Made by a program: the position numbers and the translations under genes | Source: Zygnema cylindricum | Taxonomy: Eukaryota; Streptophyta; Zygnematophyceae; Zygnematales; Zygnemataceae | Reading direction: 5' to 3' | Assembly: GCA_037447655.1 (NCBI GenBank) | Contig: JBBHKE010003030.1 | Span: forward strand, 38,989 to 102,988 | Length of the DNA: 64,000 nucleotides | In this document: positions 21,359 through 53,229 of the stretch, one piece after another | Position numbering within the stretch: position 1 is the first letter of the stretch | Layout of the letters: each line of letters begins with the position of its first letter | Notes under the pieces: generated by a model | Database searches by the model: none | What the model was told of the DNA's origin: nothing | What the model saw: the letters and a program-made list of their open reading frames with translations, nothing else

Positions 21359-21533
21359 TTGGCTTCTTTGTCTCTCCAAGACGAGACTTTGCAGGTTTCT
21401 ACGGAGGATGATAAGGATCTATTCGCTATGGCGGCTGCAATGGAGGGCGCGAAGGACCATGGATGGATATTGGATACAGGAGCGTCAGCCCACATGTGCT
21501 GGAACAAGGCCATCTTCAAAAATCTGAAAACAA
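21359..21533 (+). pseudogene. CopB-2 protease, N-terminal part
   Basis: Reads to WILDTGASAHMCWNKAIF with the Asp-Thr-Gly active site, then FKNLKT, where Gyp2 interrupts it. The frame resumes at 28879 with PEKNIYYACGMSVQTRAVGD. The unbroken CopB-3 version confirms the join. The open frame running on into Gyp2 is an accident. Confidence 0.85.
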
Positions 21534-21589
21534 TGTCATGCCGCATCGCGTCGGTTGCATGCGCACACGATATCATGCCCGCACGCGCG

Positions 21590-21840
21590 ATATTTGGTGT
21601 GCGCGCACGATATAATGCACGCACGCGCGGTATTCTGCACGCACGCGCAGTATTTCTCACGCACGCGCAGTATTTCTCACGCACGCGCGGTATTTCTCAC
21701 GCACGCGCGGTATTTTGCACGCACGCGCGGTATTTTGTATGCACGCGCAGTTTAAGGCACGCTCGCGCGGTTTCATGGGTTTGCGCGCGGTTTTATGCAT
21801 GCACGCACGATTTTGGCACGCGTGCATAATTTGCGTTCCC
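21590..21840 (+). repeat. Gyp2 20-bp tandem array in A1
   Basis: About ten to twelve units of the type TATTTCTCACGCACGCGCGG, degenerating at both ends, repeated in A2 at 27456-27706. It lies upstream of the promoter, so it may act as an enhancer-like or silencing-prone CG-rich array. Arginine/alanine-rich ORFs across it are shadows. Confidence 0.88.
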
Positions 21841-22132
21841 ACGTGCGAGTTTTCGTCGGTTCATGTGTTTATGATGTGAACGCGATTTGCGTTCACGTAC
21901 GATTGAATGCATACTAATTTCGTGCGCACGTTTTGTTTTGTTTATTTTCAAGGTACACGATTTTGGGAGTATCGACGCGGCGCGATTTTCGGAAATATTT
22001 CAGACGATATGTTTCATTTCGTGCGACATGTTTTGTTTCGTGCGTATGCACGTAATTTTGTGAGTATCGATGCGCGGTATCGTTTGGCGTCGAATCGCGA
22101 TTCCCGGTGGTATCGGCGGCGCTTCGATACCT

Positions 22133-22146
22133 TTTATTTATTTAAG
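22133..22146 (+). promoter_or_regulatory. Gyp2 TATA-like promoter
   Basis: TTTATTTATTTAAG in otherwise GC-rich DNA, repeated in A2 at 27999-28012. A start about 30 bp on would give a transcript from A1 through the internal part and B1 into A2. Confidence 0.45.
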
Positions 22147-22358
22147 TCGCGAACCCATGTAGGTTCGCGCACATGTAGTTAGGGAGGGTTTTTACCCTTG
22201 GACGGTGGATTTTGTTAGGCGTACGGCAGACGATGTTGGCCGCCTATTGGCCAACATCTTAAGTAGTTTCATGCATGTAAAGTAGACTAGACGTAGGCTA
22301 ATTTTGCTTAGGCCTAGCGCAGCTCTTACTTAGCCTAATTCTCAGACTTAGAGAATTT

Positions 22359-22375
22359 AGCTTTTGGACAAGAAT
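22359..22375 (+). promoter_or_regulatory. Gyp2 candidate self-primer
   Basis: AGCTTTTGGACAAGAAT is perfectly complementary to 22822-22838, immediately after the A1 end. In Tf1/sushi-type elements the transcript's own 5' region folds back on the primer-binding site. Here the match would lie about 190 nt inside the transcript if the TATA call is right. Confidence 0.5.
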
Positions 22376-22821
22376 TTTCTCTTGGCAGCGGAGCTTTTCT
22401 CTTGCTCTCTCTCTCACCGATTGCCCACGTGTCTTTCTTCTCCTTGTTAGCTAGCTGTAGAGGCTAGATAGAGTAAGATTATTCTCCTTGTTTTTCTGCC
22501 CTCGTTTTTAATCCACACGGCCTAAGGCCACGTCCGGAAGGTTTCCCTCCAAAGTTTGTCTTTTGGTGGAAGTGTGGAATTGGAGATCGTGGGGGAGCAC
22601 ATCTGGACCTTGCTGCGCCTTCCTCGGGCAGCTTGACGGTTTGGTTGTGTGTTTGTGTCTTGTTTGTATTTCGGTTGGCTTGAAAGGAGTGTTTTTTTGA
22701 TCGGATTTGGATTTTCCCTTGTTCCGGTTGGAATATTTCTTGCTTTGCTGTCGTAACGGGATAACTCTTGTAGGGAATGTGATAAAGACCAGAGAGCCTA
22801 GTGGCTACCTCCTGGCTTAGC

Positions 22822-22838
22822 ATTCTTGTCCAAAAGCT
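22822..22838 (+). promoter_or_regulatory. Gyp2 candidate primer-binding site
   Basis: ATTCTTGTCCAAAAGCT begins at the last base of A1. It lacks the TGG expected for a tRNA 3' end and matches no tRNA I recall, but it is the exact reverse complement of 22359-22375. Confidence 0.5.
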
Positions 22839-24477
22839 CCACTTTTTAAAAATCACATTTTCTAAAAGTTTATTTTTATAAAAATAATTCATAAAAAAAT
22901 ATATTACTTTTCAAATTCAGTTTTTATTCTTGTTTTTTTCTTCCCACTTTCATGCCTATTTACCTTTCATTTTCAGTTTTACTTCTCAGTTTTGTGTGAT
23001 AAAATAAAGCTAAAGGAAAAAAAAAAATATAAAAATTACATTATTTTCAATATAAAATCTATTTTTTCATTTCTAGATTTTCTTCCACCTTTTATTTGAG
23101 TTCGGTTTTTTTTTCCTTTTGATCTAGCTTTATTTTACTACAAGTTTCATTCTACTTTCTCTCTAATTTTGCTTTCGGTTTCAGTTTTGCATTGGGAAAA
23201 TATATTATAAAAATAATTTAATTTATAAATTTTATTTTATAAAAAAAAAAAAAAAACATTTTGTTTTGGTTTTTTGTTTTCCTCTTTCTTGCTTTCAATT
23301 CTTGTCTTCTATCTTGCTTTCACTCTATTTCTGGTCTGCAGATTTAGGTCTGAATTTGTGTCAGATTTTTAGGGTTAATCTGCGAAATTAGGGTTTGGCC
23401 GCAGATTTAGGGTTTGGGCCGCAGATTTAGGGTTTGGGCGTATTTAGGGTTTATTTTTTGAAATTCTTAACCCTAGGTCAGCATTTTACCATTCATTGGT
23501 CGCAGATTTTTGATTTTTCCAGCGTGGAATTAGGGTTTGGGAAACCTTTTTGCCCAATTTTACCGTATTTTGTGTTTTATTTTGAATTTTTCTCAATATT
23601 CCTCATATTTCTTTCTTTTAGTGCAACTTAATTTGTTAACTAGTGGATGTTTATTTTGTTCGGGATTTGATATTTTCTTTCTTTTTCTCTTGTCAAATTT
23701 AATCATTCATAAAACTTAACAAAATAAAAATATATATTCTATATATCAAGATTGCACGATTTATCACCTATAATTATCACCGCTTTATAGTTGGGCATAG
23801 CGTGGCATAGCGCCGATACGCTTACCCTAGCAGGATACTAATTGCTTTGGTGTTTAGTGGTGGTTCTTGACACGTTTATTCGGAATCGGAGCGGGTTCGA
23901 TTTCAGGGAGCTCTGCAAAATCCGACTTGCCTCGACCAAGTCCGGTTCACTTTTAGTACTCACCAGAGTATTAAAGGTGTTTGTAAGTATCACGATGCCT
24001 TGCGCGTGCAGGGGCGTTTCTTTGTAATTTGGACACTCGTGTAGGGGTTCAGTGTGGATTGGTTATATTACGAACATTTTTTTTTGAGTATTTGCATTTT
24101 CCTTGTTTTCCTTGCATGCTATCTGGCCGTGAGTGGCCTTGAGTTTCCCTGTGACTATCTGAATTGGATTTCCTTTCATAGATCTTGTCGTTGGTGGCAC
24201 CGTTTAGACAATTTTATGTCTGTGCCGCTCTAGATCTGCACCGAAAGGTGCCTGCATAGTTTCTCTGTTTGTTTTTATAGATCTGGCCCTTCGGCCATGC
24301 CCATTGTTTGCAGGGTAGAGGTTTTGGTATTCCGGCTTCTTGCTAGATCTGACCACCGGGTCTTGATAGAGACTTCGTGTGTTAGCTTGTCTTGTGTGGT
24401 TTGGCCTTCCATTTGACGCACCTCGATTAGGTCGTTCCGTTCTTTCCTAGTCGTAATCGAGGGTTTTCTCTTCGTTT
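22839..24477 (+). other. Gyp2 leader
   Basis: About 1.6 kb between primer-binding site and gag. AT-rich, T-run-rich first half, more mixed second half. No ORF of note. It may be untranslated leader or contain introns. Confidence 0.6.
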
Positions 24478-26037
24478 ATGCCCACGGATTGGGATAACTT
24501 ACGTTATCAATCCGGATCTACCCGCGGCGGGACAGTTTTCCGTCCACCGCAGTTAGACCTTTCCAGTTTCTCCGAGTCTACGGACGCACCTGTTTCGGTT
24601 GCGGCCCCTAGATCTCCGTCTGTTCGGTCAGTATTGACCACAGTCTCATCATTATCCTCAGTTTCCTCTAGGTCATCCCTAGATAGAACCGAAAGAGACT
24701 TTTCAGAGGAAATCTTTTTCCATCCTCTCACATCATTTCCGTTTTCGGTCGGTCCAAATTTGGAACCACTAGTGCATTCTTCCTTTGACGACATGGCTTC
24801 CTCTTCAGAGGGGGGCATGGGGAAAATGCAATTTTGCTTTTCAGGGATGAAGGATACCATGTCTTTATCCCATTTCCGTATGCTTTATGATACCGAAATG
24901 CGTGATTTGGCATTTCGATATCAAGATCGATTTGATCTTCGTGTGGCATTTTCTCTTCTTGGTCGGTACCTCAGAGGTTCGGCCCTTACATTATATTCTC
25001 GCAAGTATGATGCTATACTCGCGATGACAGAATTTTCCCCTCCTTTTGCTGGTACACCCGAGGTCATAGGTCAAGCGGATATTCCATTCCAAGCCGCTTT
25101 TCCCGAGGTCTTAGATCCTCAAGGTGTTGTCCTTATTCCCGCACTCCCAGAAATTCCGCGCCAATATGCTGTGGCCGCTCGTGCTGCTGTCCCAGCATGA
25201 CCAGGGATGATAATTCCGTTGCGGGGTCCACTATCTGTTATGTTCGATTTCTTAGAAGCCGAGTATCGGATGCAAAACCCCGATCAGGTAAAAGAATTTA
25301 TGAATTTCACGCGTAAACTAGGAGAAACTGCCCCTGCTTTACGTGCTCGCATGGAGACTTTGCGAGAAGCTTTACCGGACCTAATATTCGATGCGGAAGT
25401 TGTTCAAAAATTTGTTGGACGGTTTCCAGATCAATCGAAACGTTTTATACAAAGTCATCTCACTCAGACTTACGGTCTGAAATTTACATTTGATGAAGCC
25501 GCTCCATATGCGGTAGAATATGAGATGCAATCATGTTGGTGGGAAGCTCATGATCGTTTGGAAGTTGCTTCCCCACTTTCTCAACCTAGTAGCCCATGGC
25601 CAAACAATAGGCCTCCAAAGACGCCGGCCATGGGAAATCCGCCATTTAATTCCGGAGACCGATTGTGTTTCCGATATGGAAACACGAGGCATGATGCCCG
25701 CATGTGCCCGGATAAGTCCGCCACATGCACCCATTGCAACCAAAAAGGACATTATGTCCACCGTTGCCATGTTAAAGATCCTAATTATTCCTATCAGAAT
25801 CAGATTCAGAACGGTGGAATTCCTGCCCGTTTTGCCAAGCCGGTCACTCCTCCTACCGAGACAGAGAAAGAGGCGACTCCGCCTAGGATCTCTCGAAGAG
25901 AGAGAGAAAAGGCCGAGTTACAAGTCATGATGGCCGCCATGATGAAGGAGCAATTTGCTGCCTTCATGGCCGAGATGAAACCCCAATTCACGGGGATGGC
26001 AAAGACAGTCGTCCACACGCCATCGTTGGTTGGTTGA
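24478..26037 (+). pseudogene. Gyp2 gag, one in-frame stop
   Basis: Two open pieces in the same frame separated by a single TGA at 25198-25200. The N-terminal 100 residues are Ser/Pro-rich. A Ty3/gypsy capsid-like region follows (VKEFMNFTRKLGETAPALRA, FVGRFPDQSKRFIQSHLTQT), then two CCHC knuckles. The first reads CFRYGNTRHDARMC, its second Cys replaced by Tyr; the second, CTHCNQKGHYVHRC, is intact. A charged helix follows. The lone stop could be recoded or a recent mutation. Confidence 0.8.
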
Positions 26038-26270
26038 ATCCTCCGGGATTCCACTGTCCAACAACGGGCAGCCACTTTTGATAAGGGATCCTCTAATCAT
26101 AATCGGGACGGTAAATTACAGAATTCCCGTATTCCACTTTCTTTCGAGAAAGAATCTCTCTCTCCTCTACCAGACACAGCTTCCTCCATTGTAGCTGAAG
26201 CTCTCACTATTCTGGATAGTACATACATGATGCACATCGAGTCAAGGAACAACTAAGCATCCTTTCTGCC

Positions 26271-27191
26271 ATGATTGATGAGGTCCCCAGTGTCTCTCCC
26301 TTTCTTAACGAGGTTCCCAAAGCCTCTCCCCTTGTTGACGAGTTCGCTGCAGCCGCCGCTTTGAGGGCGTTGCAACTGAACCGTAGTCTTTCTGTTATTC
26401 AGCCGGTTACCGCAGATGAGCGCCGTGACCTTGATCCTCACATCAGTTTCTTAGACAATTCTCGAATGTCCTTCTCCGTTAATGGTGTTTCTCCTTCTCT
26501 CCCTCTCATGGACACCGGAGCCAAACCCGTGATCCTTGGATCCGGATTTGCGCTCAAGCTTGGTCTGACAGCAGACAAGCTCCAAGCCACGGCTACTCGG
26601 CTTCTTACTTCAGCCGGTACCACGGAGTCGGTGCTTGGGATTACCAAGGACCCGCTTGTCTTTCGGTTTCACCACGGAAACGAGAGTGAGTCCGTAGAGG
26701 TTTCGGTCCGAGCATTGGTCACCAAATCCAACGACTACGAATGCTTAGTGGGACAGGATGTTATCTTTCGAATCGGTGGGGGAGTAGATATGCATGATCA
26801 GACCTTCTCCTACCGTCCCTCTAATTTTCCGGGACGCAAAATTTGCCTCCCTCTTGTCTCTGCTCGCAAGCCGTTGCCCACTATGGCACATTTGGCTTCC
26901 GCTCTCCCTGCATTTTCGAGTAACGAACTTCGGGAAGACAATGGCGACTCATTTTTCACGGAACGGATCCATACTGTCGACACCGAAGTCTTTCCACACA
27001 TTCTAAATGTGGTGGATAGTGATACTAATGGGATGTTGAGTTTGCAGAGTGTTTATGCATGTACAGGTGGTGATCAAGGGTTCCACATTAAGTGCCTCTC
27101 TTCTCCATTATCTTTCAACCCGGTTGACCATTGCTACCTCCGTATCGGTTCCAGGCCCTCAGCTGTGTTGACCAGCTCCTCCACAGGTTAA
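26271..27191 (+). CDS. Gyp2 retroviral-type aspartic protease domain protein
   Basis: 306 residues in a frame different from gag. The active site SLPLMDTGAKPVILGSGFAL (Asp-Thr-Gly-Ala) sits near residue 80, followed by a flap-like region and ECLVGQDVIFRIGGGVD, which fits the second conserved block (hydrophobic-hydrophobic-Gly). The stop is followed at once by the polypurine tract, so nothing else of pol was ever present in this copy. It may be expressed by frameshift or from a separate start. Family assignment is by motif. Confidence 0.7.
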   Translation: MIDEVPSVSPFLNEVPKASPLVDEFAAAAALRALQLNRSLSVIQPVTADERRDLDPHISFLDNSRMSFSVNGVSPSLPLMDTGAKPVILGSGFALKLGLTADKLQATATRLLTSAGTTESVLGITKDPLVFRFHHGNESESVEVSVRALVTKSNDYECLVGQDVIFRIGGGVDMHDQTFSYRPSNFPGRKICLPLVSARKPLPTMAHLASALPAFSSNELREDNGDSFFTERIHTVDTEVFPHILNVVDSDTNGMLSLQSVYACTGGDQGFHIKCLSSPLSFNPVDHCYLRIGSRPSAVLTSSSTG

Positions 27192-27206
27192 GGAGCTGGG
27201 GGGGGG
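27192..27206 (+). promoter_or_regulatory. Gyp2 polypurine tract
   Basis: GGAGCTGGGGGGGGG ends exactly where block B1 begins (AATTATTGGG). This marks the start of the reverse-transcription LTR unit as B+A. Confidence 0.7.
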
Positions 27207-28878
27207 AATTATTGGGTTCACTTCACTCTAGGGGAGTATTCTTTCCCTTCTTTCTTGGGTCATTTTCACCTTTGTTCCTTGTCATGGTGTATATATTTTA
27301 TTGACTTTTCATATTTATTTCCGTTGTTGTATATGTTTGTGAGCATGACTTTGCTGGTTGTGATGCATGTTTGCTTGCTTGCCTCTCATGCACGACAGCT
27401 GTCATGCCGCATCGCGTCGGTTGCATGCGCACACGATATCATGCCCGCACGCGCGATATTTGGTGTGCGCGCACGATATAATGCACGCACGCGCGGTATT
27501 CTGCACGCACGCGCAGTATTTCTCACGCACGCGCAGTATTTCTCACGCACGCGCGGTATTTCTCACGCACGCGCGGTATTTTGCACGCACGCGCGGTATT
27601 TTGTATGCACGCGCAGTTTAAGGCACGCTCGCGCGGTTTCATGGGTTTGCGCGCGGTTTTATGCATGCACGCACGATTTTGGCAAGCGTGCATAATTTGC
27701 GTTCCCACGTGCGAGTTTTCGTCGGTTCATGTGTTTATGATGTGAACGCGATTTGCGTTCACGTACGATTGAATGCATACTAATTTCGTGCGCACGTTTT
27801 GTTTTGTTTATTTTCAAGGTACACGATTTTGGGAGTATCGACGCGGCGCGATTTTCGGAAATATTTCAGACGATATGTTTCATTTCGTGCGACATGTTTT
27901 GTTTCGTGCGTATGCACGTAATTTTGTGAGTATCGATGCGCGGTATCGTTTGGCGTCGAATCGCGATTCCCGGTGGTATCGGCGGCGCTTCGATACCTTT
28001 TATTTATTTAAGTCGCGAACCCATGTAGGTTCGCGCACATGTAGTTAGGGAGGGTTTTTACCCTTGGACGGTGGATTTTGTTAGGCGTACGGCAGACGAT
28101 GTTGGCCGCCTATTGGCCAACATCTTAAGTAGTTTCATGCATGTAAAGTAGACTAGACGTAGGCTAATTTTGCTTAGGCCTAGCGCAGCTCTTACTTAGC
28201 CTAATTCTCAGACTTAGAGAATTTAGCTTTTGGACAAGAATTTTCTCTTGGCAGCGGAGCTTTTCTCTTGCTCTCTCTCTCACCGATTGCCCACGTGTCT
28301 TTCTTCTCCTTGTTAGCTAGCTGTAGAGGCTAGATAGAGTAAGATTATTCTCCTTGTTTTTCTGCCCTCGTTTTTAATCCACACGGCCTAAGGCCACGTC
28401 CGGAAGGTTTCCCTCCAAAGTTTGTCTTTTGGTGGAAGTGTGGAATTGGAGATTGTGGGGGAGCACATCTGGACCTTGCTGCGCCTTCCTCGGGCAGCTT
28501 GACGGTTTGGTTGTGTGTTTGTGTCTTGTTTGTATTTCGGTTGGCTTGAAAGGAGTGTATTTTTGATCGGATTTGGATTTTCCCTTGTTCCGGTTGGAAT
28601 ATTTCTTGCTTTGCTGTCGTAACGGGATAACTCTTGAAGGGAATGTGATAAAGACCAGAGAGCCTAGTGGCTACCTCCTAGCTTAGCAAATTATTGGGTT
28701 CACTTCACTCTAGGGGAGTATTCTTTCCCTTCTTTCTTGGGTCATTTTCACCTTTGTTCCTTTTCATGGTGTATATATTTTAAGGACTTTTCATATTTAT
28801 TTCCGTTGTTGTATATGTTTGTGAGCATGACTTTGCAGGTTGTGATCCATGTTTGTTGCTTGCCTCTCATGCACGACA
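27207..28878 (+). repeat. Gyp2 blocks B1, A2 and B2
   Basis: B1 27207-27397, GC at 27398-27399, A2 27400-28688, B2 28689-28878. B1 and B2 are about 190 bp each and differ by a few changes including a 1-bp indel. The B1/A2 junction GACAGCTGTC is a perfect palindrome and equals the outer ends GACA and TGTC joined by GC. Confidence 0.9.
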
Positions 28879-31353
28879 ACAACGCCGGAGAAAAATATTT
28901 ATTATGCTTGTGGAATGAGTGTCCAGACTCGTGCTGTGGGTGATGTGTCCTTACTAGTTGATGTAGAAGGAAAAGCAATTGAAAGGACTCTTCACAATGT
29001 CTTATTTGTACCTGACTTTAAGAAAAATCTGTTTTCTACGTCGTTGGTAGAGAGTAAAGGCTTTGAGGTTAATTTGAAAAATGGTCGGCAGGTTGTTAGC
29101 AAAAATGGCAAGGTTGCGGTTACAGGTACTAGAGATAGTAGCAAGATGTATCGCATGGATATGGCTAATACAAAGGAGAATGATGTTCTGTACTCCGGTG
29201 TTTTGCACTCAGATGAGTTGTGGCATAAAAGATTAGGCCATGTAAACTATGATAGTTTGAGGAAAATGGTCCTTGCTGGAAAAATAGAGGGTGTATCAAT
29301 CACAAATGAGCCGGTCAAAACTTGTGATGGTTGCGCTTTAGGCAAAATCCACAGATTGCCATTTCCTAAAGAGTCTGAGCATCGGTCACACAAACTCTTA
29401 CAACAAATTCATTCGGATGTCTTTGGTCCGGCGAAGGTTTCATCTGCCGGGGGGATGAAATATATGGTCACCTTCACAGATGATTTTTCCAGGTTTACAA
29501 AAGTTTACTTCATGAAGGAGAAGAGTGAAGTGTTTGGTCACTTCAAACACTATAAAGCATGGGCTGAAAAGCTTCATAATTTACCTATTTTGCAGCTCAG
29601 ATCGGACAATGGTGGTGAATATACATCAAAGGAATTTGAAGCCTTTTTACTCGAGGAGGGAATAAGTCATCTATTGACTGTTCCATATTCACCGGAACAA
29701 AACGGGGTGTCGGAAAGACTGAATAGAACTCTCACGGAGAGCTCTAGGTCGATGCTCGCAGATAAAAATGTGGATTCGAAATTCTGGGCTGAGGCTCTAA
29801 ATTGTGCAGTTTATATTAAGAATAGGATAGGATCAAGATCGGTAGGAACTACTCCTTACGAGATTTGGACAGGAAACAAACCAGATGTTAGCCATTTCAA
29901 GGTCTTTGGTAGTCAATGCTTTATATTGGATACTTCTCCAGATAGATGGAAAATGGAACCGAAGGGATTACCGGGTATTCTGTTAGGATATGATGATCAC
30001 TCAAAAGGTTATAGAGTCTTTGTGTTTGGGAGGCAGAAAATAGTTGTAGCACGGAACATCCTTGTTAAAGATGAACTAGACTCTATAGATTTATTTAAAA
30101 TGACAGAGCAGCAAAGGCAACAAAAGGTACAGGAATATGTCATTTTAGATTGCATGCAGGATATTGTCCCGCAGATTCCACAAACTCCGGTGATGACTCC
30201 GGAGTCCGACTCTCTTCAAGTTCCTCAACAAATTCGGATCCAGACGGACCAACAGCGGTCAGTACACACAGATCGCAACCAGCGCAATCAGCGCAACGCA
30301 CGGCATCCGACGATCTCAGCCTCAGAATTTCCGGGGGGAAGAAGATCAAGTAGCCGCCTGCAAGCAAGCTCTCACTTTGCCTACTCGGCAGCCTCAGGGG
30401 AGCCTTTGACCATTCAGGAAGCCTTCTCATCACCAGAACGGAATCACTGGATCGAGGCAGCAAACGACGAAATGAAGTCCATCATGGAGGCTCAAACATG
30501 GGAGCTTGTGGACCTTCCTCCAGACCGAAAAGCGATCGGCAGCAAATGGGTATTCAAGGTGAAGTTAAATCCCGATAACACCATTGAACGTTATAAGGCC
30601 AGACTTGTGGCAAAGGGGTATAATCAAAAGGAAGGAATCGATTTTGAAGAAACATTTTCTCCGGTTGTAAGATTTCCGACAGTTAGGATTTTGCTGTCTC
30701 TAGCTGCTATAGAAGATATGGAAATACATCAGATGGATGTAAAGACGGCCTTTTTGCACGGAGAACTAGAAGAGACCATTTACATGCAGCAGCCTGAAAA
30801 GTATGTGGAACCAGGAAAAGAGCACTTAGTATGCAAGTTGCTAAAATCTTTGTACGGCCTAAAACAGGCCCCCAGACAGTGGAATCTAAAGCTTGATGAA
30901 TTCTTGACTAGCCTAGGATTTCAAAGGATAAGTTCTGATCACTCTGTCTACGTTCTAAAGGGTGACAATGGGATAGTATATATAGCAGTATATGTAGATG
31001 ATTTGCTATTAATTAGCAAATCAATGGCTGAAATTAACAAAATTAAAACTGCTCTAAACTCACGGTTCGAGATGAAAGACCTCGGTGAGGCAAAATATAT
31101 TTTGGGTATCCAGGTAGACAGAAATAAGAAAATAATAAAATTGACTCAAAAAGAGGCCATTGGAAACATGTTAGATGAGTACGGAATGCGGGGGGTAAAA
31201 GGATGTTTAACTCCAATGGAGTTTCGGCAGAAGTTAGAGGGAGAAGAGACAGAACCAGGTGTCATTATTAGCGAGTATTTAGAGTCAAAGGAGAATGATC
31301 CTATGACAATAATACCTTATAGACAAATAGTGGGAAGCTTATATATTTCATGA
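28879..31353 (+). pseudogene. CopB-2 pol: integrase and reverse transcriptase, RNase H lost
   Basis: The longest intact pol stretch in the window. Order: protease remainder, HHCC module (LWHKRLGHVNYDSLRKM, CDGCALGKIHRL), integrase core with HSDVFGPAKV, RSDNGGEYTSKEFEAF and SPEQNGVSERLNRTL (all three catalytic acids), copia C-terminal block, RT with KWVFKVKLNPDNTIERYKAR, HQMDVKTAFLHGELEETIYM and IAVYVDDLLLISK. It ends IIPYRQIVGS then shifts frame by a one-base deletion to a stop at 31353. Without RNase H it cannot be autonomous. Confidence 0.9.
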
Positions 31354-52392: not shown

Positions 52393-52837
52393 CCCGTTGT
52401 CTTTGGTCTATGGGAAAGGATTTCGAGAAATGCCTTGTACATTCAGGCTAAGTAATTCTGGGCGGAATTATTTCCAAATCGTATTCTTGTAAAATTAATG
52501 CCCATCTCGCTAGTTTTCCCGAAAGCTTATCGTTCGTTATCAGCCAATGTAATGGTTGATGGTCGGTTAAAATTGTAAACGGTTTTCCGTAAAGGTAATG
52601 ACAAAAGTATACAATGCCCCTAACTGCCGCTAGGCATTCTCTTTCATAACTATTGATATTTGAATCAGCATGATTATTACCTTTGCTTGCGTAAGCAATT
52701 GAGTATTCTTCTCCTGTTAGTTCTCGTTGAATTAAGATGGCCGCAATGCGAAGATTTTGGAGGTTTGTCTGTAGGCAAAAAGGTAATTTGTGATTAGCAG
52801 GCTGGAGGATGGGAGCACTAGAGAGGGCATCATTCAA
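52393..52837 (-). pseudogene. Gyp1 RNase H
   Basis: 130-codon open piece with ALSSAPILQPANHKLPFCLQ, IAYASKGNNHADSNINSYER then ECLAAV, FTILTDHQPLHWLITNDKLS and ARWALILQEYDLEII. This is the Ty3/gypsy RNase H (TDHQPL block). The first catalytic Asp position reads Gln-Thr-Asn in place of Thr-Asp-Ala-Ser. Confidence 0.85.
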
Positions 52838-52841
52838 CTTC

Positions 52842-53229
52842 CTAAAAGCTAAAATCTGATCCGGTACCCATACAAATGGGACTATTTTCTTGAGCAGATC
52901 TTTTAAATGGTGTAGCGACTATACTAAAACTTAAGACAAATCTACGATAGTTATTGGCCAATCCAAGGAAGGCTCGGAGGCTTATGAGATCAACCGAGGT
53001 CGATAATTTGCTGATTGCCTTTGTTTTTGCTTCAAGCGGTGTGAATCTCTTGGAGGAAATGAAATGTCCAAGGTAAGGCACACCTTCAGACCCGAAAGTA
53101 CATTTAGTCGGATGCCATTTTAATCCGACCCTTTTCAATTTAGTTAAGACCCATCCGATATGAGTTACGTGATCTTTAATTATGGGAGAGGCGATAATAA
53201 GGTCATTGATACAACATCATGCAATCTTG
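52842..53229 (-). pseudogene. Gyp1 reverse transcriptase, C-terminal part
   Basis: Includes CCINDLIIAS, a decayed Y-x-D-D block (Asp-Asp to Asn-Asp), then HVTHIGWVLTKLKRVGLKWH, CTFGSEGVPYLGHFISSKRF (YLGH block) and LRAFLGLANNYRRFV. The frame is broken at 53139 and 52840. It continues at 58921 across CopB-3. Confidence 0.85.

Follow-up and report, generated by a model that had tools for sequence, protein, structure and literature searches.

We analyzed a 64,000-nucleotide stretch of DNA from Zygnema cylindricum (Zygnematophyceae), hereafter the window, together with the assembly to which its contig belongs (352.8 Mb in 2689 contigs, representing one genome). The subject of this analysis is Gyp2, a retroelement insertion at positions 21534-28878 of the window, in which two repeat blocks, A and B, flank the internal region in an unusual order.

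Organization and coding content of the Gyp2 insertion

The repeat blocks of Gyp2 follow the order A1-internal-B1-GC-A2-B2, all on the plus strand. A1 (21534..22822) is the left insertion end and begins with TGTC, B1 (27207..27397) is the start of the proposed reverse-transcription long terminal repeat (LTR; B+A), A2 (27400..28688) is the second copy of A, and B2 (28689..28878) is the right insertion end, terminating in GACA. A1 and A2 are 99.6% identical (5 of 1289 positions differ), and B1 and B2 are 96.9% identical, with five differing positions and one 1-base gap. This alignment bears out the unequal ends described in a first-pass annotation of the same DNA, namely A alone on the 5' side and B, A, and B on the 3' side. 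Gyp2 thus has no equal terminal LTR pair of the Gypsy kind, with a primer site abutting the left LTR and a purine tract abutting the right one. Both A blocks contain 20-bp tandem repeats in approximately nine copies (21568-21748 and 27434-27614); their number seems to vary across genomic copies, which complicates the alignment of A starts.

Gyp2 is inserted in a copia element that has its own repeats near 19.4-20.3 and 31.2-31.9 kb. The flanks read GAAA-ACAA before TGTC and ACAA-CGCC after GACA, with the two ACAA copies at 21530..21533 and 28879..28882. A paralogous copia on the minus strand near 57.19 kb provides the empty site and has ACAA only once. The TGTC...GACA ends together with this single ACAA set the target duplication at 4 bp, refining the 4-5 bp noted previously.

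A polypurine-tract sequence (27190..27206, plus strand) abuts B1, and a candidate primer-binding site (22823..22838, plus strand) lies directly after A1. A putative self-primer segment within A1 (22359..22374, plus strand) is a 16-nt perfect complement of the primer site, or 17 nt when the last base of A is included, whereas shuffled primer sites gave at most 9 nt in 100 trials. The self-complement counted from the first base after A is 16 nt in Gyp2, 20 nt in C2577, and 17 nt in C1344 (two related copies with open pol frames), with three different sequences and shuffled controls not exceeding 11 nt; matches of 16-19 nt were found in 8 of 11 further copies. These complementarities point to self-priming at the site after A, as in the Tf1/Sushi and Tcn1 elements. 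Because B begins where the purine tract stops and A runs up to the self-priming site, the expected complementary DNA (cDNA) is BA-internal-BA. The borders of the two sites and the self-priming site agree with the earlier proposal that B+A is the reverse-transcription unit. Reverse transcription would thus act on B+A and the integrase on A...B, so that the two units would be out of register.

Gyp2 itself retains only gag and protease. The gag region (24457..26037, plus strand) includes one in-frame stop and a CCHC-like zinc knuckle recognized by eye, without a Pfam gag match, and has 73% DNA identity over gag to a larger relative on contig C2337. The protease open reading frame (ORF; 26220..27191, plus strand) matches Asp_protease_2 with an E-value of 2.7e-4, below the curated cut-off. 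Its first 250 residues are 73% identical to the protease of the C2337 relative (locus L017), and its end matches the integrase C-terminus and PHD finger of the same relative (E 3e-10). The retention of gag and the joining of the protease ORF to an integrase/PHD remnant indicate that Gyp2 is an internal deletion derivative. A homology search with the protease ORF returned nothing at E 0.001, and there was no match among phage records.

The C2337 relative encodes gag, a protease that matches Pfam weakly, a C5 DNA methylase (E 3.8e-12), a reverse transcriptase with RNase H, a PHD finger (PF00628), and an integrase that is broken but retains H2C2 and rve matches. It therefore carries the Ty3/Gypsy domain set, as RVT_1, RT_RNaseH, the weak protease, and the rve and H2C2 pieces, and the BLAST relatives of its reverse transcriptase are Gypsy pol proteins. 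Among the 120 of 2110 reverse transcriptase matches listed, many near the top combine an integrase with a PHD finger, three (P0005, P0026, and P0034) contain PF00145, and the named sources include Calypogeia, Closterium, Chara, Klebsormidium, and Marchantia. With P0001 as the query, several full-length stop-free frames were found in the host genome among the 45 of 9950 candidates scored. The methylase, inspected in the C2337 relative and part of L028, is encoded between protease and reverse transcriptase (L017 3117-3932, minus strand), and a similar stretch is partly visible in L028. The C2337 copy (L017/L029) has a window-type A1 (91%) beside a far more distant A2 (~70%), and its B2 was not found within the stretch examined. 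Elsewhere in the window, a reverse transcriptase-RNase H fragment (52448-53216, minus strand), with 76% identity over 147 residues to the C2337 reverse transcriptase, is a remnant of this autonomous PHD-finger Gypsy lineage.

The permuted repeat order across the genome

The A-internal-B-A-B order is a family trait that recurs on many contigs, including subfamilies with unrelated B blocks. Besides the window, it was found in L009, L011, L012, L014, and L015, with A2 shortened in L012, L014, and L015 but not in L011, and the 3' parts L020, L023, and L025 have the same order. Shorter forms are represented by A-internal-B (L010 and L022) and A-B (L013, L016, L018, and L026). One further locus (L024 1800-8300 as oriented, contig C1887) has a tandem array of shortened A segments ahead of an A-internal copy.

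We classified 66 B segments, comprising those of the above copies plus 40 small extra stretches; L023 and L025, which have the same flanks and probably derive from a single insertion, were both counted. There were 38 segments of the form A-B-flank, 17 of the form purine tract-B-joint-A, and 5 of the form purine tract-B-flank; in the remaining six, which were examined more closely, the upstream sequence is likewise derived from the element. None of the 66 resembles the left end of an ordinary BA-internal-BA copy, since what precedes B was in every case a polypurine tract, the end of A, or another part of the element. Among 20 additional B|A joints, L127 lacks approximately the first 27 bases of B, and its upstream sequence is unmatched to Gyp2. 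Among copies with an open pol frame, C1344 and C2234 are arranged as purine tract-B-A-B. C1344, whose B resembles that of Gyp2 only at its end, is a young copy: its A1 and A2 are identical over 565 bases, and it is flanked by the duplication TTGG. C2577 has the A-internal-B form, and in the more distant pol copy C1374 no such joint was found within the 2.5 kb inspected. Tabulating the copies, as the first-pass annotation had suggested, thus revealed a recurrent permuted order and, among the 66 B segments, no ordinary copies. Independent contigs with different duplications make misassembly unlikely. On the genome-wide copies and joints, we reject ordinary BA-internal-BA copies, a rearrangement confined to one copy, and general misassembly.

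Target duplications of 4 bp were present in 22 of 28 two-ended copies (10/12, 8/10, and 4/6 in three sets) and comprised many different 4-base words; at a chance level of 1/256 per copy, the binomial probability is ~4e-48. L014, with the first base changed, and C1108, with GATA for GACA, were scored as matches. Copies with one end only were left out (L017, L019, L020, L023, L025, L028, C2156, C669, C2019, C1030, C115, C837, C2317, C825, C2610, C1814, C1848, C1407, C2390, C2340, C1093, and further 3'-only stretches), as were the partial or odd A copies L021, L024, and L027. The family therefore has duplications in the 4- to 5-bp range of Gypsy elements at TG...CA ends, and these, together with the H2C2 and rve matches of the C2337 relative, support the DDE-type integration proposed earlier. 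A clean example on contig C271 has the duplication CAGT, one difference in 191 positions between B1 and B2, and the joint TT. A second B|A joint (C271 86318-86339) lies ~130 bases past the 3' end of this copy, which suggests insertion into another family member.

The two joints within the 3' repeats behave differently. At the B|A joint of Gyp2, GACA-GC-TGTC (27394..27403), which we propose as the palindrome cleaved by the integrase, the 2-bp spacer is constant. A genome pattern search for the two halves of the joint with 0-12 bases between them yielded 197 matches; the spacer was 2 bp in all 100 of the 197 that were listed, and the reversed control gave 0. By hand count, the 100 spacers were 66 GC, 15 AC, 13 GT, and 2 AT, with GA, CC, GG, and CT once each. 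All 19 B|A joints among the 66 B segments likewise have a 2-bp spacer, one of them with GACT for GACA. The A2|B2 joint (28688..28689, plus strand), a proposed end-joining scar of cDNA ends, has no extra base in Gyp2 and is variable elsewhere: the 35 readable A|B joints contained TA (13), T (7), TT (5), no extra base (5, one also without the last base of A), and the singletons TG, TTG, TTA, TTCTGG, and TCC. The extras T, TT, and TTCT correspond to A running on into the primer site, and G, GG, and GGG to B extended into the purine tract. Other A|B joints are deletions in which A is truncated at 1278, 1142, 1098, or 727; the microhomology GACCAG occurs at one of them and filler DNA at another. 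Variable joints of such kinds are the usual appearance of two-LTR junctions, and the A2|B2 joint looks like such a junction. The constant B|A and variable A2|B2 joints support the view, advanced in the first-pass annotation for Gyp2, of an integrated circular permutation, which belongs to the family.

A proposed route of integration

The reading that we favor, and consider rather probable, is that end-joined cDNA, most simply a two-LTR circle, is opened by the integrase at the palindromic B|A joint and then inserted. The ends of the linear cDNA, namely the A end of the right LTR and the B start of the left LTR, would be joined, and each LTR would hold the internal palindrome GACA-NN-TGTC. Retroviral integrases take off two bases after CA. 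If a DDE integrase carried out its ordinary 3'-processing here and cut behind each CA, the opened palindrome would have a 5' overhang of 2 nt on either side, and a 2-bp spacer between the CA ends would be required if the two cuts share the same two bases. Opening of the left LTR joint would produce A-internal-BA|B, to be inserted like retroviral DNA, and a one-LTR circle would open into A-internal-B. The former product has A on either side of the internal region, which would place the R region at both RNA ends and allow the permuted order to propagate; the latter, without A on both sides, presumably could not go on. The stronger version of this proposal, for which we see the arguments as evenly balanced, is that joined cDNA is the obligatory route to an insertion able to transpose again, with the integrase using the LTR-internal attachment (att) joint instead of the cDNA ends and every insertion keeping a fossil of the end joining.

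A number of observations weigh against this proposal. The evidence is the sequence of one genome, from which we infer the circle, the RNA end, and the enzyme activity. The self-primer match is reduced in L028 (12 nt) and L014 (9 nt) and missing in L019, and 6 of the 28 two-ended copies have no matching duplication (L013, L026, C270 and C1571 with 3 of 4 bases each, C418, and C2577, the last with an open pol frame). The A2 tail, a 0-base joint, and B2 variants are common to C270 and the window copy, which otherwise differ, and the joint type weakly tracks B2 similarity (p = 0.04). B1 and B2 have diverged more than A1 and A2 in five copies (25/937 vs. 69/5605) as well as in C270 (11/191 vs. 22/1196). 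Most importantly, the two B|A joints of a circle are equivalent, so the other opening should give A-B-A-internal-B, and yet A-B-A was found at none of the 19 joints described above and at only one of the 20 additional joints, taken in contig order. Upstream of these 20 joints, the set that includes L127 with its shortened B, 17 have the purine tract and L123 has internal sequence without a G run; the single A-B-A case, L129 on contig C173, reads A end-GGGGG-B.

The sharing between C270 and the window, the weak dependence on B2, and the excess B1/B2 divergence would all suit templated inheritance, as has been proposed for split-repeat tyrosine-recombinase elements, in which the RNA would extend through B2, A2|B2 would be copied from the parent, and B1|A2 would bridge the ends. 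We regard this as improbable, because the A|B joints differ among the window copy, L009, and L012, which are ~1% apart in A, because joints contain primer-site and purine-tract bases, and because B1 and B2 show no fixed differences across copies. The latter fact also leaves a separately inherited B2 lineage unsupported, and an identical B occurs as B2 in L011, B1 in C1148, the only B of L010, and B1 in the window. Nor are A1/A2 differences overrepresented on the downstream side of the self-primer in L009, L012, and L014 (27/2455 upstream, 10/1053 downstream); such a concentration is seen only in the window copy (1/825 vs. 4/464). A1 and A2 are mutual nearest relatives in five of seven copies, the exceptions being L011 and L015. 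L011 combines a window-type A1 and B2 with an internal-B1-A2 of another type, switching near the A1/internal border; in this single case, the pattern is what a left LTR made of B2-A1 and a right LTR made of B1-A2 would be expected to give. Taken together, the A|B joint appears to be mostly formed anew, and the C270/window case implies that an A2-B2 segment can move between copies by conversion or copying.

The left-joint bias speaks against two-LTR circles being opened at random; the left joint may be favored, the cut may precede end joining, or the other product may be lost. Besides the two-LTR circle or concatemer opened at the B/A boundary that was suggested earlier, linear cDNA sealed after strand transfer is a candidate. 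By this account, the integrase would cut the left B|A joint in linear cDNA and strand-transfer both ends, and the remaining gap, from the end of the right LTR to the start of the left LTR, would be sealed by the host, leaving A2|B2 as a chromosomal repair scar without any free circle. The deletions, microhomology, and filler at A2|B2 suit break repair, and non-equivalence of the LTRs in the linear cDNA could allow a preference for the left joint. However, cutting first does not by itself explain that preference, a break with every insertion would be costly, and the A-internal-B copies with duplications (L010 and L022) would require another route; we consider this account unlikely. Much less plausible is mobilization by the tyrosine recombinase of another element, in whose favor stand the split direct repeats typical of PAT/Ngaro-type elements. 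The figure legend in PMC5890265 also describes DIRS-type order in a Gypsy element. We rejected such mobilization on the 4-bp duplications and the H2C2 and rve integrase pieces, and no recombinase match was found in five scanned ORFs of the C2337 relative (the genome was not searched for PF00589). A one-off rearrangement or misassembly, for which no support was found, has a negligible chance of being correct, because the same order turns up on many contigs and also where subfamilies carry unrelated B blocks. The opening of joined cDNA at the B|A joint remains our preferred reading.

Relation to known systems

The standard view is that integrase-type retroelements insert linear cDNA by its ends and that circles are dead ends. 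Here, the ends of reverse transcription differ from the ends of insertion, and the insert appears to preserve the point at which the cDNA ends met, so that genomes alone would suffice to test what part joined or circular cDNA plays in DDE integration. The permuted order also suggests how split repeats can emerge whatever the type of recombinase, and it offers a reason for ordinary LTR finders to miss such families. The stronger version of our reading, if correct, would make the family a case of convergence with the split-repeat elements that use a tyrosine recombinase; for this one lineage, it would also bring back the circle-junction model of retroviral integration, which has been discarded.

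The PAT/Ngaro/Kangaroo-type tyrosine-recombinase retrotransposons have A1-internal-B1-A2-B2 split repeats and a proposed circular intermediate. The Gyp2 family shares their A1-B1-A2-B2 split direct repeats but differs in its DDE integrase pieces, 4-bp duplications, and aspartic protease. A closer parallel in repeat order is KnitGypsy-Dnmt3 of Klebsormidium nitens, to which a figure legend from 2018 assigns the repeats of a DIRS-element structure (PMC5890265). As described there, it resembles the present family in its Gypsy domain set, a DNA methyltransferase in pol, and DIRS-type repeats, whereas the consulted parts give no target duplication, joint, priming, or integration mechanism (PMC5890265). 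The position of the methylase between protease and reverse transcriptase in the C2337 relative is a difference from KnitGypsy-Dnmt3, the two being likened by description and not by sequence; Klebsormidium pol proteins are among the listed matches of the C2337 reverse transcriptase. The name KnitGypsy was not found in the other papers searched, and the integration mechanism proposed here was not found in the literature searched, which covered few subscription papers and excluded the supplement of PMC5890265. The repeat order in a methyltransferase-bearing Gypsy element had already been stated for Klebsormidium in that legend (PMC5890265), and the proposed mechanism is specific and appears new relative to the literature searched.

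Self-priming at a site directly after the LTR is known for the Gypsy elements Tf1/Sushi and Tcn1, according to the parts of PMC6317226 consulted. The Gyp2 family resembles Tf1/Sushi in its self-priming, as judged by sequence only, and differs in that a PHD finger replaces the chromodomain at the integrase C-terminus and in its permuted integrated form. The integrases of foamy virus and human immunodeficiency virus type 1 (HIV-1), as reported in the consulted parts of PMC1180852 and PMC1905944, can cut a palindromic two-LTR junction. The likeness to the Gyp2 family would lie in a DDE integrase cutting, as proposed here, a palindrome of two abutted att ends. In foamy virus and HIV-1, the palindrome is the LTR-LTR joint itself, whereas in the Gyp2 family it is located inside each LTR, and with the palindrome built into each LTR, its cutting would permute the element.

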